From positions 124,001 to 188,000 of the forward strand of contig JAIRVB010000012.1 in NCBI GenBank assembly GCA_031254105.1: a DNA stretch of 64,000 nt, given 5' to 3'. This DNA is from Chitinispirillales bacterium (GTDB lineage: Bacteria > Fibrobacterota > Chitinivibrionia > Chitinivibrionales > Chitinispirillaceae). The position numbers were made by a program, and so were the translations under genes. The number at the start of each line of letters is the position of its first letter. Position 1 is the first letter of the stretch. The notes beneath the pieces are model-generated. The model searched no databases and was not told the DNA's origin. It was given only the letters and a program-made list of their open reading frames with translations. Below, in pieces: positions 15,876 to 23,605 of the stretch.

Positions 15876-17027
15876 TTACTCCTGAGTGTGATAATGTTTG
15901 GGAAATTGAACAGGCATCTCACTGCCGCGCCGTTTTTTATATGGTGATTTTGAAGTAAAAGAAGGACCGATTGATTTTGAATTTTTGGGACTGAAGAGTC
16001 CAAGCCCCAATTCTTTCCATCTGCCTACGCCGTCGGTAATCGCAATCCAGGAGCCGTCTTCCATAAGATGGGCGTCAAAATGATGCATGCGGATTCCGTT
16101 CCAATCGCTGATTATCCCGCTGCCTTTCATTAACGGATTACCGTCAAAAGCTTCCTCTTTATAGGATTGAGGAGTTAGTTCACTGATAATAAAAACGCGT
16201 ACATCCCAGCCATACGATGGTTTACAGTTTTGGGTAAAGCGGATATGTTGTCCATTGTAAGAGATCACTCTGCCGCCTGGCCGGGCATGTTCCAAATCTT
16301 TCTTGATAACAGGACTTTTGGGATGAGGCTGCCATGCACCATAAATGTCATTGGCCCAAAAAAGATGAAGCATATCATTACGGTCAGAAGCAAAAAGGTA
16401 CCAATTATTTTCGTGACGCAGAATAGTAGGGTCTGTATAGTCACCTTCCAGAATCGTTTGATATTTTTTCCAGCCGTATGGGAAATTTTCTGCTTTGTAA
16501 ATGCTGACAGAATAATCCGCGTGACTTTCAGGAATCATCAGAATTTCATCATTATATTTGAAGACCAAAGGGTAAGAGAGGTGAAACGGTTCTTCAAGAA
16601 CGACCCTGTCATATTCCCATTTTAAACCATTTTCGCTTGTAGCAAGCCCTATTATGCCTTTATGCTGAGTAGATTCGAGTATTTCGAAAAACATATACCA
16701 CTTACCGCCTTCTCTTATCAAAAAAGGGTCGGCTACAAAATCGGCCTTAACATCATTAACCATTCCGGCTGTCATTATCGGATTAATTTTATCGACCTGA
16801 TACATTTCCAAAGGTGAAGGGCCGCTGAATACGCCTATCATATATTCGCTTCTGATATTTACAAGAGGAGTAATGTCCCTGCGTCCCATAAAGACACCGG
16901 AGAATAAAATCGCGCCGGCTAAAAACATGCCCGACAGCATTTTTAAACAGCGGTATTTTCTTTTTTGGAGTATAGTTTTTTCCAGTGACTCAGAAAGTTT
17001 GGAAACTGCGATTTTGTTTGAGGCCAT
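15876..17027 (-). CDS. Membrane-anchored beta-propeller glycosidase-like protein (GINT1 N-terminal/GH43-like)
   Basis: The 383-aa product has one N-terminal membrane segment (about 30-48, 'MLSGMFLAGAILFSGVFMG') and a body that looks like a five-bladed propeller: 'VADPFLIREGGKWYMFFE', 'GIIGLATSENGLKWEY', 'YPLVFKYNDEILMIPES', 'DPTILRHENNWYLFASD' and 'HARPGGRVISYNGQHIRF'. Each blade carries the pattern 'P.(I/V)....(K/N)WY(L/M)F', shared by GH43/GH32-like enzymes and the N-terminal domain of plant GINT1-like proteins. The paired Asp residues near 97 and 197 fit that group. Whether it cuts sugar or only binds it cannot be judged here. It is alone on the minus strand, about 90 bp downstream of the ECF-like gene. 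Confidence 0.6.
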   Translation of the reverse strand: MASNKIAVSKLSESLEKTILQKRKYRCLKMLSGMFLAGAILFSGVFMGRRDITPLVNIRSEYMIGVFSGPSPLEMYQVDKINPIMTAGMVNDVKADFVADPFLIREGGKWYMFFEILESTQHKGIIGLATSENGLKWEYDRVVLEEPFHLSYPLVFKYNDEILMIPESHADYSVSIYKAENFPYGWKKYQTILEGDYTDPTILRHENNWYLFASDRNDMLHLFWANDIYGAWQPHPKSPVIKKDLEHARPGGRVISYNGQHIRFTQNCKPSYGWDVRVFIISELTPQSYKEEAFDGNPLMKGSGIISDWNGIRMHHFDAHLMEDGSWIAITDGVGRWKELGLGLFSPKNSKSIGPSFTSKSPYKKRRGSEMPVQFPKHYHTQE

Positions 17028-17113: not shown

Positions 17114-18271
17114 TCAGGGAATGGTTTCTGTTTTGTCATAATTGTTTTCTATAATGTTCGCAATTCCCAGTTTCATCTCTTCTACATATAATGTTAATGT
17201 AGCTTTGGGTTTGAGCAGAAGCTTTGTAATTGGAGTTTTCTCCCTGGATCTAACATTTCGCACTATCTCAGGAAAGTGCTCGAGAGCGATCATGCCGGCT
17301 TCAAGAGTTGAACTTTTGTCCGGGAAAATTTTATTAAGGGCGGAGAAAAGCAGCTGATGAAAATGAAACCTCTTTAAAATGTGAGCTGCTTGCAGCCAGC
17401 ACCACAGGCGTAAGCTTTGTTTAATAAATGCTGATAAACCTTCATACGTAATAAATGGTAACGCTTCAACGCGTGTTCCATATGAGAAAAGAAGGTGCGT
17501 ACAGGCAATAAAAAGGAATAGTATATAAAATTTCAGCGGATAAAGAATAATGTTTGGTTTTTCAGGATTTAGTATAAACGCGGTTAATGAGAAGACAGCC
17601 GCGGATATTGTCAGTACCGGGAAATTTGAGACAAATACAAACGATACGCACGCAAGAAACGTAAACGTGACAATAACTTTATCACCGAACGCTGTCTTTT
17701 GATTAGTACTGTTGAAAGACGAAGATATGCGTTCCGATCTGCCATAATCGACATCAATAATGCGGGCGGCATGCGGTACAAGCGCGCCCGCAACCCCTCC
17801 AAATATAACAGCGGCTCCAAACATAAACGGGAGTTGACTGAAAAGCCTCATGTTCTGAGCCATCATGAAATAAACGACACTCAGCTGTCCGGCGTTATGG
17901 AACAAAGCTCCCATTATTGCCAGCCCGACAGTACCCATTAATTTACGCTTACCGAGAGTAATCCATAATAACGACATTACAGTTGTGGAAAGAATCCCTC
18001 CCGCCAAACTGAGTGAAAATGTAAATAAAGAAAACCCAAAGTAAAATCCTGAAATCCAAATCCTCAAAGTCGTATAAAGAAGCGCGTCTTTAAATCCAAA
18101 CCGGATTATCCACAATATTGTAATAATATTGGCAAATCCCGGTTTCAGCCACGGCAAAAAAGGCAGACGCGGAACAGCCAGTTCAAGCGCGTTGATAGCG
18201 ACAGCTATCAAGAGCCACACCGCTTTTTGAGCGGCAGCGTTTGTTTCCTGTTTAGTAAGTGACTCCATCAA
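17114..18271 (-). CDS. Gx-transporter-like membrane protein fused to EcfT-like C-terminal half
   Basis: Residues 15-185 match the Gx transporter family (once called heptaprenyl diphosphate synthase component I): 'ALELAVPRLPFLPWLKPGFANIITI', 'RIWISGFYFGF', 'GALFHNAGQLSVVYFMM'. Known members are about 170 aa. Here a further 190 residues follow, with three or so membrane segments and a basic, helical tail ('HFPEIVRNVRSREKTPITKL') that recalls EcfT/CbiQ coupling proteins. The gene overlaps the NusG-domain-II gene by 20 bp, and that pairing is common next to Rnf, FMN-transfer or electron-transfer genes. The fused form would let one protein bind substrate and couple to an ATPase, but no ECF ATPase is in the window. 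Confidence 0.65.
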   Translation of the reverse strand: MMESLTKQETNAAAQKAVWLLIAVAINALELAVPRLPFLPWLKPGFANIITILWIIRFGFKDALLYTTLRIWISGFYFGFSLFTFSLSLAGGILSTTVMSLLWITLGKRKLMGTVGLAIMGALFHNAGQLSVVYFMMAQNMRLFSQLPFMFGAAVIFGGVAGALVPHAARIIDVDYGRSERISSSFNSTNQKTAFGDKVIVTFTFLACVSFVFVSNFPVLTISAAVFSLTAFILNPEKPNIILYPLKFYILFLFIACTHLLFSYGTRVEALPFITYEGLSAFIKQSLRLWCWLQAAHILKRFHFHQLLFSALNKIFPDKSSTLEAGMIALEHFPEIVRNVRSREKTPITKLLLKPKATLTLYVEEMKLGIANIIENNYDKTETIP

Positions 18272-18641
18272 CGCTCTTTGTTGTTTTTGTTGAACGGATC
18301 TCTACGAGAATGTTGTTAGGCGCGCAGACAAGCTGTCCGAATGTCCGGCTTATCCCGCCTGTGCGTTTGCAGATCTGGTGCGGGCAGTTTACATGCTTTA
18401 TTTTTGTTTCTCTATCTTTTATTTCGATGATAACAGGCCCGTTTTTTCCATTAACAGTGAAGATTATATTATCGTCAAGCGGATATTCGGCCATAAGAGA
18501 ATTATCTTTGAAAACAACAACGCGGTCAGGCAAGCCGGATTTGAACAGCGCAAACACGCTGATCAGCCCAGCCATCATTATAAGCACAATAAAGACATCC
18601 GCGATACCGAAAGTGCGGATTGTATTGGAAAGCTGCGCCAT
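18252..18641 (-). CDS. NusG domain II-containing membrane-anchored protein
   Basis: The 129-aa protein has one membrane segment (about 13-33, 'IADVFIVLIMMAGLISVFALF') and a small beta domain with 'NCPHQICKRTGGISRTFGQLVCAPNNILVEI'. The C-P-H-(Q/K)-x-C motif and the 'VCAPN' end are the signature of stand-alone NusG domain II proteins. These sit beside Gx transporters, as here (20-bp overlap, probably translationally coupled). The two cysteines may form a disulfide outside the membrane. It is not a transcription factor. Confidence 0.85.
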   Translation of the reverse strand: MAQLSNTIRTFGIADVFIVLIMMAGLISVFALFKSGLPDRVVVFKDNSLMAEYPLDDNIIFTVNGKNGPVIIEIKDRETKIKHVNCPHQICKRTGGISRTFGQLVCAPNNILVEIRSTKTTKSVDGVTY

Positions 18642-18831: not shown

Positions 18832-19677
18832 TTAGTAACTCACCATCGCTTTTGCATAGTACAGATTGTTATGAGTCGCCAGACCGACAAGCACTTTTGG
18901 ATTGGTATTGCTCCATTGTCTGCTTATTGAGAGACGTCCCTGTTTGATGTCATGAAACCCTATCCGGTTTTTCCTTCCCGGCGGGCCTACTCTTTTTTCG
19001 TACGCGTCTGAGAGCTGATCAGCCCATTTGCGCACTGTTTTGTCGAGTTCCGCCGCGTTCAGAGCTTTAGTTTCCGTCTCATATCTGTTATACTTTCCGT
19101 TTTCATCAAAGTATAGCGCGACTGTGAGAATAAGGCTGTCAAACTCTACGGAATCCACCCTCAAAAATTCCGGTGTATTTTCCGCTTTCACACTGTCGCG
19201 GTCAAAAATCAACAAAAGAGCGCTTTTTGATATTCCAGCGGGAATGCCCATAATGTCTGCCGGATTTGACTTAAGATTTTTCAATTCATTCGCTATTGTC
19301 ATGGAGTCGTTATAAGCTTTACTTTTTTTGCGGCGTTGAGCTTCAACAATGCTGTCCATCTCCATAAGCTGCTTGTCAATGCGCTCAAAAAATATAATAG
19401 GTTCGCATGGCCTGACGTGCTGCGCTTTTAGTCCTGTAACACGCACGAATGAGGCAAATTTTTCGGCGTAACCTTTGTCTGATATAAGAGAGTCCATCTC
19501 TTTTTTCCATTGAAAAAGCTGCTTACGCGTGAGTGTGGTTGTATCGCCGGTACAGACTAAATAATCGTTTCTGATCTCCCACTCTAAAGAATCCGCCGCA
19601 ATGCTTTGTGCATTGGCGGCCGGAGCGGCATTTGCTGAGAACGCCGCCGCTGCGATAATCACTGCCAAAAAAATCAT
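18832..19677 (-). CDS. Secreted protein of unknown function in MoxR operon
   Basis: I place the start at ATG 19677, which overlaps the stop of the preceding gene as ATGA, with GGAG seven bases before it. The 281-aa product has a signal peptide (MIFLAVIIAAAAFSANAAPA) and then a mostly helical, charged body: 'MDSLISDKGYAEKFASFVRVTGLK', a coiled-coil-like stretch 'IDKQLMEMDSIVEAQRRKK', and a beta-rich end, 'LSISRQWSNTNPKVLVGLATHN'. I recognise no family. Overlap with the TraB-like gene and the ATPase upstream suggests it is the exported member of a three-gene operon. Confidence 0.6.
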   Translation of the reverse strand: MIFLAVIIAAAAFSANAAPAANAQSIAADSLEWEIRNDYLVCTGDTTTLTRKQLFQWKKEMDSLISDKGYAEKFASFVRVTGLKAQHVRPCEPIIFFERIDKQLMEMDSIVEAQRRKKSKAYNDSMTIANELKNLKSNPADIMGIPAGISKSALLLIFDRDSVKAENTPEFLRVDSVEFDSLILTVALYFDENGKYNRYETETKALNAAELDKTVRKWADQLSDAYEKRVGPPGRKNRIGFHDIKQGRLSISRQWSNTNPKVLVGLATHNNLYYAKAMVSY

Positions 19678-21515
19678 AGTTGATCTCCGATAAATCTTGA
19701 GGCCCAAGTTCTTACTTCTTTACCGTTAAGAACATGGAAGCGCCTTAGTTTGTTAAGGGTTTCGTTTGAAAATGATGATAATGGAATCCACACCAGATGC
19801 TTTTTAAATTGGGCTGCCATTGTGCGCAGACGCAAGGTTGGCGCTTTGGCGCAGACGTAGGCTACGGTTTTTTCCTGGCTGAACATAAGCGCTCCGAATG
19901 TGAGTCTTGCGGCGCAGTCTGGCGGATCCATTTCATTTGTAAGGTCAAATATATTAGGAACAGAGCGGGGCGGGAAAAGAAGAGAGATGCCTCCATAGGC
20001 GCACCGCGCTACGCCCGGGCCGATAAGGTCGGCAAATGGGTCTGTCGCGTAGAAGCTGAGAGTTGATTCCTCATTGTGTTCGGCATACCATGTTGTGCGC
20101 AGCGGGTAACGTTCATCATGATCCTGGTCGAAAATAATGATAACCGTGTCAGTTTTATTTTTGATGGGCGGTATTTCTTTTACGTAAATATTTCCGGTAT
20201 GCCAGTTACGCAGAGTTTCTCTTATATCTATACCATCCTTAACGGAGGAGGTAAATTTTTCGCTTCGCGCCAAATGCTCTGTAACGACACGCAGCGCCTT
20301 GTTGCGTACATGAGAATTAAAACTTTCTATCCGTGTATCTTCCGGCAGATGCGAGCATTGACCGTAAGGATTCCAGGAATAACGGTAATTTTTCTTCTGA
20401 AGCATGGATGGGTCGGGCTTTATCTCAAGTGTGCGCCACTGCAGATCTGTGTCGCGGAAAAGATTAACCGCTTCACGCGTTTCACGCCCGGCGCCTGGAA
20501 AGGAATCATCTGTTAATGAAATTTTGTCAATACCGATATTTACCGGCGGTTGCGCGCTTTCGATAGGCAGGAACGGATAGTATTTCGCTCCTTTAAGGAT
20601 ACGCAGACCATAGGCGTTTCCGCCCACTCCCTTGGCTGCTTCTACAATGTCAAAAAGTGAGGGGAGCAGCCTGCCCGATATAACCGTAAGATTACGCAGG
20701 TATGTGAGGGCTGCCTGAATCCTGACGGGCGATAACCGCATGGCCTGTTCTTTGTCATCGAAATAGTTGTCACGTGTTTCCCTGAACAGATCCTTTACTA
20801 TTTCGGTAAGGTCCGGGGGAGGCGCGAATATATTAAACCGTTCCAGTTCTGTTTTCGCTGTGACAAAAGGCAGTTCACCCAAAGCGAAATACAGATGATC
20901 GGCGTTGACCGGGCGTTTTGTCACAGTATAATTATCAGTAAAAGAGGGCGGAGCGCTGTTATAACTCTCTTCTCTGTTAAAGTGACGCAAAATTGAGTCA
21001 ATATTTCTTAAATGCGCAATGAAAAGAATATTACTGTATGAAAGCCGCAAAGTTTGCAGATTTGACGCTATCTGTTTTGCGTCAATATAATCGAGGCTAT
21101 CCTCAGGGGCGCTTCCCGCCGCAAGACGGCATAGAGTTATATATGCCTCAAAACCCAGCTTTTCAGTTGAATACTCATCAGGCATTGATTGAAGCGGTCT
21201 GGGAGAATAGAGCTTCGGCATACCCGCGCAGTAGAAGGGGATACGGTTCTGACACGCCTGCCGTACGCCTTCAATCATCGGATCGCATGGATCAATTGGC
21301 AGGTAGAACCAGAGTTCTTCGCTGCCGCGCGCAATTAACGCGTTTATCACCGGAAGATCATCAACAGCTTCTCCAAGGTATTCCTGAAATGTAGATGAGA
21401 TGTCAAGCACAACACAATCGTACTTTTGCTCGCTAAAGAGTCTGCGCACTTCGCGGCTAAGGAGCTCTTTTCCATGCATTACAGGAAAAATTTCTATTTC
21501 GGGAGATAATCTCAT
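19674..21515 (-). CDS. Uncharacterised protein with TraB/ChaN-like N-terminal region, MoxR partner
   Basis: The 613-aa product starts 'MRLSPEIEIFPVMHGKELLSREV', then 'YDCVVLDISSTFQEYLGEAV' and 'DPMIEGVRQACQNRIPFYCAGMP'. This order (a his-gly motif, a predicted strand ending VLDI, and a helix before 'IPFYCAG') recalls the TraB/ChaN/EreA-like group and the DUF5682 proteins that travel with MoxR ATPases. The rest (about 150-613) shows no known domain. ATG 21515 is used; TTG 21524 and GTG 21518 also sit behind AGGA. It lies 5 bp after the ATPase gene and overlaps the next gene by 4 bp. Function unknown. Confidence 0.65.
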   Translation of the reverse strand: MRLSPEIEIFPVMHGKELLSREVRRLFSEQKYDCVVLDISSTFQEYLGEAVDDLPVINALIARGSEELWFYLPIDPCDPMIEGVRQACQNRIPFYCAGMPKLYSPRPLQSMPDEYSTEKLGFEAYITLCRLAAGSAPEDSLDYIDAKQIASNLQTLRLSYSNILFIAHLRNIDSILRHFNREESYNSAPPSFTDNYTVTKRPVNADHLYFALGELPFVTAKTELERFNIFAPPPDLTEIVKDLFRETRDNYFDDKEQAMRLSPVRIQAALTYLRNLTVISGRLLPSLFDIVEAAKGVGGNAYGLRILKGAKYYPFLPIESAQPPVNIGIDKISLTDDSFPGAGRETREAVNLFRDTDLQWRTLEIKPDPSMLQKKNYRYSWNPYGQCSHLPEDTRIESFNSHVRNKALRVVTEHLARSEKFTSSVKDGIDIRETLRNWHTGNIYVKEIPPIKNKTDTVIIIFDQDHDERYPLRTTWYAEHNEESTLSFYATDPFADLIGPGVARCAYGGISLLFPPRSVPNIFDLTNEMDPPDCAARLTFGALMFSQEKTVAYVCAKAPTLRLRTMAAQFKKHLVWIPLSSFSNETLNKLRRFHVLNGKEVRTWASRFIGDQL

Positions 21516-21520
21516 CACGG

Positions 21521-22447
21521 TCAATCCTCATCGGAGTCGGGATTGAGAGACTCGTCATCGGAGAAGAAGAAGTCGCCGAGATTCATTGACGGAAGGTGTA
21601 TGCCGGAATTTTTCCGGGCTTGCGCTGATTTTTCAAGATCAGCGGCGTCTTCACCCAAAATTTGTTTAAGCGCGCAGTCAAAAAGTTCTTCTATGGAGGC
21701 GCTCTTGCCGCTCTCTTTGAGTTTGAGCGCATAGCGTATGGTGTTTATTCCATCGCGTACGGAGTATGGCAGGTCGAGCCCGTGCGCTTTTTGCAGATAG
21801 GCAACGCACATGTCAAGAATTTCAGGGCCGGAAAAGGGGAGGCTGTATGAAAGAATTTTCATCTCATCTTCTCTGTCGGGAAAAGGGATCCTGATTCCCG
21901 GCTGCAAACGTGACATGATGTAGTCGGGTATCTCAAAGGTTGACGAGTCTTCATTCATGGTTACAGCCGCTCTGAAATCAGCGTGTGCGCTTACCGTTAT
22001 CCCCGCTACTACCGATTCTATCATGCGCCTGTTGTCAAAGAGACCGGCAAGAGATGCCCATGATTTTTCCGCCATTCTGTTTCCCTCATCAAGAATAGCG
22101 ACGCCTCCCTTTATGGCGGCAGTAAGCAGCGGAGAGGCGTGATAGGCGATTTTTCCCTGATCTGAAAGAACCGGAGTTACAATAAGGTCTTCGGGGCGGG
22201 TATCGGATGTGCACTGCATTATGTAAACATCCTGGTTACGCCTGCGCGCCGCCGCTATGGCAAGGGTAGTTTTGCCTATGCCGGGATAACCGATAACGCG
22301 CGGGGTAAGGGGAAAATCGGTTTTATCAAGGACTGTCCAGCACGCCAGGATCTGGCGCATCGGTTCACTCTGCCCTATCCACTCCGCGGAAGCGGCAACC
22401 GGATGGGCAAGCGTTAACTCTACATTATCAATAACTATTTTATTCAT
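21521..22447 (-). CDS. MoxR-type AAA+ ATPase
   Basis: The 308-aa protein has a Walker A loop GYPGIGKTT (about 58-66), Walker B 'GGVAILDEGNRM' (about 112-123), a sensor-1 segment 'FRAAVTMNEDSS' and the 'PDYIMSRLQPGIRIPFP' motif. That combination is the MoxR group. MoxR ATPases act as chaperones that load or activate partner proteins, often ones with VWA domains. No VWA protein is nearby, and the partners here are the TraB-like protein and a secreted protein. The C-terminal tail is acidic. It is the first gene of the operon. I see no good ribosome site at the ATG (22447). Confidence 0.85.
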   Translation of the reverse strand: MNKIVIDNVELTLAHPVAASAEWIGQSEPMRQILACWTVLDKTDFPLTPRVIGYPGIGKTTLAIAAARRRNQDVYIMQCTSDTRPEDLIVTPVLSDQGKIAYHASPLLTAAIKGGVAILDEGNRMAEKSWASLAGLFDNRRMIESVVAGITVSAHADFRAAVTMNEDSSTFEIPDYIMSRLQPGIRIPFPDREDEMKILSYSLPFSGPEILDMCVAYLQKAHGLDLPYSVRDGINTIRYALKLKESGKSASIEELFDCALKQILGEDAADLEKSAQARKNSGIHLPSMNLGDFFFSDDESLNPDSDED

Positions 22448-22500: not shown

Positions 22501-23586
22501 CTAATTTTTTAATTCAAACAGATCGGGATTTTCCCTCTCTTCCCAGAGGTATCTGGATTTATCCTGCCACTTTTCGATACAGTTGGTGTTAAGATTAGGT
22601 TTGGTTTTCATCTCCTCATTGCGTTCGCTTATAAGCTTTGAGAACGCCGTAAGATATGAGTTTGCGCTTGTATAGTCATTAAGCCGTATTTTTAAAGCGA
22701 TAATAGTATAGAGGCACTGGAGTTCTATATCTTCATTCGGGCAGTTGGATTTGCGGTATGCTTCCTCAAAATAACGTAGCGCCTCTGTCAGTGTTTCGGT
22801 GTCGTCGGCTTTTCCTGCCTTTTGTAAATGAGCTATTTTTAACGCGTAAGAACCGAGCTTAAAGAAAGAATACGGCTGTTCAAACCACGCTTCGGCCTGA
22901 GCGCGCGCCATAGCGAGCTTGTAGCTGTCGATAACGACATCTGTAGTGCGTGGTTTTTTGAAATAGTTTTCGAACTTTGTTAAAGGAGCCAGAAGGATCT
23001 TCCGGTCATCTGTTTTTCCCTTAAGATCGGAAATTACAGAGGAGGGAAGCGCCGATTTCTCTTCTCCTTTTCCGGTAACTGACGGGAAGCAGAAATCTTT
23101 TTTGTCCGGAGAGGCAAAGAGGCAGTCCGGGCAGACAGTAACGGCGTCACGGGTATAATCTGCGGTTTTGTACCCTTTCGCGCCTGAATATATCGGAACA
23201 AGTAATACTGTTTGCTGCATTTGCTGGCTTTTGGCGCGAAGTTCATATCTTACGATTTTATTGCGTCCGCAAACCGGACAATTTACGAGTGTTTCAAATA
23301 TCGGGTCTTCCCCTTCTTCCTGTACCGCCTCAGGCTCAACATACGCGTTACCGCTGGCCCGATCCTTAATTTCCTTAATGTATTTGACATTTATAGTATA
23401 GCCGTAGCGCTTGATGTATTCATTTACAAGGCCAATATCTTTCATCAGTATAAGCAGTCTTCTTTTTACTTCGGTATCGTTATCAACACTCATATATGGA
23501 GAATTCCTCTCTATTTGAAACTCACTCAATATCTGATAAATATAATATTCGAATATTGACGATGGAATTTCAATGTTTTTTTTCAA
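22501..23586 (-). CDS. DUF2225 family protein
   Basis: The product (about 361 aa) has a zinc-binding-type segment 'LVNCPVCGRNKIVRYEL' and, 50 residues on, 'AVTVCPDCLFASPDKKDF', the paired CxxC pattern of DUF2225, followed by a helical repeat region (about 190-330, TPR-like, 'EALRYFEEAYRKSNCPNED'). Function in the family is unknown. I use TTG 23586, which has AGGTGA upstream. GTG 23595 would leave no room for a ribosome site. A Rex operator lies 20 bp upstream (23606-23623), so the gene is likely under Rex control and diverges from rex. The MoxR operon follows after 53 bp and may be co-transcribed. Confidence 0.75.
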   Translation of the reverse strand: MKKNIEIPSSIFEYYIYQILSEFQIERNSPYMSVDNDTEVKRRLLILMKDIGLVNEYIKRYGYTINVKYIKEIKDRASGNAYVEPEAVQEEGEDPIFETLVNCPVCGRNKIVRYELRAKSQQMQQTVLLVPIYSGAKGYKTADYTRDAVTVCPDCLFASPDKKDFCFPSVTGKGEEKSALPSSVISDLKGKTDDRKILLAPLTKFENYFKKPRTTDVVIDSYKLAMARAQAEAWFEQPYSFFKLGSYALKIAHLQKAGKADDTETLTEALRYFEEAYRKSNCPNEDIELQCLYTIIALKIRLNDYTSANSYLTAFSKLISERNEEMKTKPNLNTNCIEKWQDKSRYLWEERENPDLFELKN

Positions 23587-23605
23587 AAAAATCACCTGCC
23601 CGTTG

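Follow-up and report, generated by a model that had tools for sequence, protein, structure and literature searches.

Genes at the locus

The window analyzed here, the whole 64,000-nucleotide stretch of a contig from a Chitinispirillales bacterium, whose closest named relatives place it in Chitinispirillia (Fibrobacterota), carries three closely spaced genes on its minus strand, which encode a MoxR superfamily ATPase, a 613-amino-acid (aa) protein that we call the partner, and a protein with a Sec-type signal peptide (Table 1). A preliminary description, made from the sequence alone, had grouped the three on account of their spacing, and we confirmed both this spacing and the strand. With ATG starts, the ATPase and partner genes are separated by 5 base pairs (bp), and the partner and secreted protein genes overlap by 4 bp (ATGA). 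Some 8 to 9 nucleotides 5′ of both of these ATGs is a purine-rich sequence resembling a ribosome-binding site, and alternative upstream TTG starts would lengthen the partner to 616 aa and the signal-peptide protein to 291 aa. Because homologues of each are present in many genomes, the three open reading frames are not the product of chance. As detailed below, the ATPase and partner form a conserved two-gene unit in at least four phyla, while the secreted protein was judged to be a lineage-specific neighbor and not a core component.

Table 1. Features of the locus (positions are those of the window)
Feature	Size or residues	Position	Strand	Basis or remark
MoxR superfamily ATPase, CbbQ/NorQ/GvpN-like	308 aa	21521..22447	-	Pfam AAA_5 1e-16, AAA_3 1e-7
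Partner (middle protein), undescribed family	613 aa	19674..21515	-	Homologues in four phyla
Partner, N-terminal pseudo-TraB/DUF5682-like domain	1-190 (approximate)	20946..21515	-	hhalign and conservation
Partner, middle part	199-380
Partner, C-terminal part	381-613	19674..20375	-	37/50 family-invariant positions
Sec-type signal-peptide protein	281 aa	18832..19677	-	Fibrobacterota-lineage neighbor, judged non-core
DUF2225 protein, upstream of ATPase		22501..23595	-	PF09986 3e-16; 53-bp gap
NusG domain II protein		18252..18641	-	Usual next neighbor of secreted protein in Chitinispirillia
Heptaprenyl diphosphate synthase component I (HppI) family membrane protein		17114..18271	-	Usual neighbor after NusG_II

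The ATPase and partner genes are a conserved pair

Among 61 related genomes, the window genome included, the partner is found in 32. Beyond this set, 57 of 77 Nitrospinota genomes encode it, as do 20 of 64 from the phylum of G061 (a metagenome-assembled genome deposited as Gemmatimonadetes RS821), and a partner of 29% identity is carried on a 231-kb plasmid of Neochlamydia sp. S13, with an AAA ATPase gene 5 bp upstream. All 32 partner-carrying relatives have an orthologue of the window ATPase (62 to 100% identity), as does one further relative; the remaining 28 have none, and every other MoxR protein of the 61 relatives is at most 30% identical to it. The order, ATPase and then partner, and the shared strand are fixed in Neochlamydia and in the three well-sampled groups (Chitinispirillia, Nitrospinota, and the G061 phylum), and in all four the spacing is mostly between −4 and +15 bp. 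A neighborhood survey over four phyla bore out the expectation that homologues of the 613-aa protein would have a MoxR gene as their constant neighbor; two exceptions to the pairing (G001 and L066) are weighed in the Discussion.

No third gene is constant beside the pair in Nitrospinota. A GNAT acetyltransferase (9 of 21 loci), MurJ, a HAD hydrolase, and a FAD-linked oxidase are frequent neighbors there, and we judged them to be syntenic housekeeping genes; the neighbors in Nitrospinota and at locus L010 are unrelated. Viral contigs, searched with the ATPase and with the partner alignment, gave no relatives, nor did phages.

Several loci bear on how the pair is kept and moved. Two copies are present in some Nitrospinota (for example, loci L015 and L018, both of G064), and short C-terminal remnants of a second copy are seen in others (L019 10203-10349; G153:C56:164096-164263), which suggests repeated duplication and decay of the pair in this phylum. 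The Neochlamydia plasmid, pS13, comes from an amoeba symbiont, and its pair (L065 7090-9803) lies near group II intron, recombinase, and transposase genes, a setting pointing to horizontal movement. In G001 (L111, G001:C16, 3490-4434), the DUF2225 gene and an intact MoxR gene, whose product is 84% identical, have been kept, and the partner, the secreted protein, and the later genes are missing; the next gene, on the opposite strand, encodes an unrelated 1160-aa TPR protein. The absence of the partner there is either a real loss or an assembly join.

The ATPase is closest to CbbQ and NorQ

The ATPase has a Walker A motif (GYPGIGKTT), a Walker B motif (VAILDE), a sensor 1 (TMN), an SRLQP motif, and an acidic C-terminal tail (GDFFFSDDESLNPDSDED). 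The first four are intact in the ATPases of all groups; the arginine finger was assigned from its motif only. Most members end in an acidic tail with GDFFF, and the Neochlamydia ATPase is without it. When compared with the Protein Data Bank (PDB), the ATPase profile matched Midasin, CbbQ, and NorQ. Among single proteins, the best score was to a CbbQ-family protein (E, 1e-13); the two other MoxR proteins of the window genome gave 2e-11 and 2e-7, RavA 0.003, and YehL 0.008. An eight-sequence YehL alignment gave an E of 5e-5. Judged by these comparisons, the ATPase belongs with CbbQ and NorQ and not with the YehL kind that accompanies DUF5682 proteins.

The partner belongs to an undescribed family

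The 613-aa partner had no match in Pfam, NCBIfam, or PADLOC, nor any sequence match in the PDB, whether the single protein or a profile was used there; what PADLOC returned were weak, generic AAA matches to the ATPases only. An AlphaFold2 model of the partner has a predicted local distance difference test score (pLDDT) of 85.5, and its best Foldseek match in the PDB had an E of 0.08 within a Rossmann-like scatter that allowed no fold call. On these searches the family is undescribed, with neither a name nor a model in Pfam or NCBIfam. The system had been put forward as a new one, to be given up if the partner clearly matched an unrelated enzyme family; no such match appeared in Pfam, NCBIfam, the PDB sequences, or Foldseek, and the absence of a described family holds.

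The N terminus of the partner had been likened to TraB/ChaN or DUF5682 proteins, and this likeness is real. Residues 1 to 200 aligned with a 14-sequence DUF5682 alignment over residues 1 to 183, colinear from the first strand (hhalign E, 5e-9; probability, 96), and the N-terminal domain aligned with Nitrospinota TraB proteins at an E of 4e-8; these E values are for single comparisons, and controls with unrelated alignments gave 0.1 to 0.6. Independently, the partner family profile finds the Nitrospinota TraB proteins, identified as such by PF01963 (2e-34 to 3e-30), at 6e-5 to 5e-4, and the top BFVD match of the predicted structure is a TraB protein (E, 1.9e-3; probability, 1.00). The N-terminal ~190 residues thus share a distant homology with both families. 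The middle and C-terminal parts gave nothing against DUF5682 (C-terminal half, E of 0.08 to 0.4 against the whole of DUF5682 or its C-terminal part).

PF18934 did not match the window protein; it gave hits below the cutoff in 3 of 30 members (best E, 0.028), and it scored 13.2 bits against the Neochlamydia partner, for a cutoff of 26. PF01963 matched neither the window partner nor anything else in its genome, and no DUF5682 protein was found elsewhere in the window genome or in the G061 phylum. A literature search on DUF5682 found no paper in the collection searched. Position 14 of the partner is H in 26 of 30 members; position 38, equivalent to the E of DUF5682, is D, P, A, or another residue, and position 171, equivalent to the second H, is variable. 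Neither the HH, E, and second H that are invariant in DUF5682 nor the GTAH, VELC, and GAGH motifs seen in TraB are kept. Because these signature residues are not maintained, the N-terminal domain is probably noncatalytic. Membership of the partner in DUF5682 was considered and rejected: the protein falls below the Pfam cutoff, has another C-terminal half, lacks VWA and SWIM genes alongside, and is paired with an ATPase that is not YehL-like.

Stand-alone, canonical TraB genes exist in some Nitrospinota (L103 1608-2798, L104 1338-2531, and L105 1334-2524). The pseudo-TraB partner is also present in two of these three genomes (G152 and G180), and in two of the three loci the TraB gene adjoins uvrB, the latter recognized by eye only.

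Conservation across the four phyla is concentrated at the other end of the partner: 37 of 50 family-invariant positions lie in residues 381 to 613, and they include C387, E392, D393, D427, D430, W476, E479, H480, and E483.

No VWA gene accompanies the pair

MoxR genes usually have a VWA partner, and its absence here, remarked on in the preliminary description, was confirmed. A PF13519 search of the 202-kb contig that holds the window found no VWA gene, and there is none in the tested flanks. The VWA genes that the window genome does have are on other contigs, and one of these genes is near another MoxR gene. A VWA domain hidden in the C-terminal half of the partner was ruled out by profile comparison (E, 0.2 to 0.5).

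The secreted protein and other neighbors

It had also been suggested that the signal-peptide protein takes the place of the VWA protein. The secreted protein is present in 25 of the 32 carrier relatives and missing at the genome level from the other 7, some of whose assemblies are incomplete. Only in Chitinispirillia is it a neighbor of the pair, its distance from the partner gene ranging from −4 to +833 bp, and the 4-bp overlap is shared by the window, L007, and L058. In Nitrospinota, the G061 phylum, and Neochlamydia, no such gene lies close to the pair. In genome G020, which lacks both the ATPase orthologue and the partner, the DUF2225 gene is followed without interruption by those for the secreted protein, NusG_II, and HppI (L106, G020:C27, 2587-6328), which makes this locus a naturally occurring empty site of the two-gene unit. 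Since the secreted protein is not constant, is variably spaced, and is present without the pair in G020, the replacement idea is unsupported; the protein occurs without the pair and is absent from carriers of other phyla. It belongs, rather, to the DUF2225/NusG_II/HppI neighborhood of Chitinispirillia. Nor did any data obtained here support the envelope or stress role that had been proposed for the system.

Proteins of ~200 aa that match the C-terminal half of the secreted protein only are found in Fibrobacter genomes without the pair (G040 to G060; for example, G048:C4:8323-8808), and this half may represent a family of its own with a wider distribution in Fibrobacterota. The AlphaFold2 model of the secreted protein has a pLDDT of 90.6; the best Foldseek match in the PDB was to YjgB of DUF4309, a relationship that we found unconvincing (E, 0.005; TM, 0.26).

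The DUF2225 gene is a conserved upstream neighbor of the ATPase gene in Chitinispirillia only. Elsewhere in the window (15876-17027) is a protein that matches GINT1_N (PF24793, 9e-60), a domain named after plant glucosamine inositolphosphorylceramide transferase and found here in a bacterial genome.

DISCUSSION

We lean toward a reading in which the pair is a CbbQ/NorQ-like AAA+ machine without a VWA protein and the 613-aa protein is the obligate partner of the ring. The ATPase would form an ATP-hydrolyzing ring, and the partner would stand where such machines usually have a VWA protein (NorD, CbbO, or ViaA) or McrC. In NorQD, a finger of the partner enters the pore of the AAA+ ring and the C terminus of the partner touches the post-sensor-1 loop; the finger-in-pore mode is also that of McrBC, whose partner, McrC, has no VWA domain (PMC13036017). 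By analogy with these complexes, we infer that the invariant C-terminal half of the 613-aa protein most likely contacts the ring and carries a working surface or active site. The N-terminal domain, its signature residues lost, would bind a client or act as a scaffold, and we imagine that ATP turnover would remodel either the partner itself or a client whose gene lies elsewhere in the genome.

The comparison with CbbQ-CbbO and NorQ-NorD is the closest. The ATPase is of the same AAA_5 kind, and the genes are adjacent, ATPase first and larger partner second; unlike CbbO and NorD, the partner here has neither a VWA domain nor detectable similarity to those proteins (E of 0.5 to 0.6 against a CbbO/NorD protein), and no known client gene lies alongside. 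Probably, then, the pair functions as CbbQ/NorQ-type machines do, with another partner in place of the VWA protein. McrB-McrC is a similar case, an AAA+ ring whose dedicated partner is encoded alongside and is no VWA protein, although the 613-aa protein shows no similarity to McrC and has no nuclease domain. TraB/PrgY/GumN proteins (PF01963) have a homologous N-terminal domain, as seen by profile, hidden Markov model match, and fold, but the Nitrospinota TraB proteins are stand-alone, ~396 aa long, and keep the GxxH and VELC motifs, whereas the 613-aa protein lacks the E and the second H and has 420 extra residues. The MoxR-vWA ternary conflict systems, defined by a vWA protein together with a VMAP, iSTAND, FtsH, or propeller component (Kaur et al. 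2020, eLife, PMC7159879), likewise combine a MoxR ATPase with an extra conserved component; here, there is no adjacent gene for vWA, VMAP, iSTAND, FtsH, or propeller proteins and no match to a defense family. Because the defining features of each were looked for and are absent, the pair is not a DUF5682, TraB, or CbbQO/NorQD system.

Some observations weigh against an obligate ring partner. In G001, from the same genus as the window genome, a 31-kb contig carries the ATPase gene but no partner gene, and at L066 there is only a partial ATPase frame, ~1 kb upstream of the partner. The C-terminal half gave no score above background against McrC, ViaA, CbbO/NorD, another VWA protein, or YehQ; therefore, a docking mode shared with these systems is an analogy. 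Finally, the strong conservation of its polar residues is compatible as well with an enzyme that is itself the client.

This last point leads to the main alternative, which we regard as rather unlikely: that the 613-aa protein is an enzyme and the ATPase its dedicated activase or metal-inserting chaperone, on the model of NorQ serving nitric oxide reductase and CbbQ serving Rubisco. The active site would then be in the C-terminal half; C387/E392/D393, D427/D430, and E479/H480/E483 are examples of residues around which it might lie. The crowding of invariant positions, and of most of the invariant polar ones, into residues 381 to 613 favors an enzyme, and since Nitrospinota have no conserved client gene beside the pair, the client could be the partner itself. 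Still, no enzyme family or fold was matched in Pfam, NCBIfam, the PDB sequences, or Foldseek, and in the activase systems known so far, the VWA adaptor is a protein of its own. The present data fit both the adaptor and the enzyme reading, and nothing here separates them.

We consider it improbable that the pair is a divergent relative of the Escherichia coli YehL-YehM(DUF5682)-YehP(VWA)-YehQ(SWIM) system that has lost its VWA and SWIM genes. The arrangement is similar, with an ATPase gene followed, in overlap or nearly so, by a gene for a protein with a homologous N-terminal domain. However, DUF5682 operons carry VWA genes and SWIM, DUF4132, or DUF5691 genes, and the pair lacks the VWA and SWIM genes; the C-terminal halves are unrelated beyond background, and PF18934 stays below its cutoff. 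The ATPase is far nearer CbbQ than YehL, to which it is related at the superfamily level only, and the invariant HH/E/H of DUF5682 is missing. A three-gene envelope or stress system, in which the ATPase, the TraB-like protein, and the secreted protein act together, is more improbable still and already largely refuted: it would suit the 4-bp overlap at three loci, the short distance at several Chitinispirillia loci, and the presence of the secreted protein in most carrier relatives, but that protein is absent near the pair in three groups, lies up to 833 bp off, is lacking in 7 of 32 carriers, sits between DUF2225 and NusG_II in G020 without the pair, and has C-terminal homologues in Fibrobacter genomes that lack the pair.

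Returning to the ring and its obligate partner, MoxR ATPases are known almost solely through their VWA partners, NorD, CbbO, and ViaA. It is tempting to speculate, and we do so tentatively, that the pair represents a widespread, undescribed class of MoxR machine without a VWA adaptor, in which a catalytically dead TraB-like domain is joined to a new domain of strong conservation and the client belongs to a core process common to Nitrospinota, Chitinispirillia, the G061 phylum, and some Chlamydiota. Cultured Nitrospinota oxidize nitrite in the sea, and the pair is near-universal among those sampled, yet the partner has gone without a Pfam or NCBIfam name or model. Because the unit consists of two genes only, it could be expressed and purified as it stands, and a non-VWA partner in at least four phyla would test whether the ring needs a VWA domain for acting on its clients.

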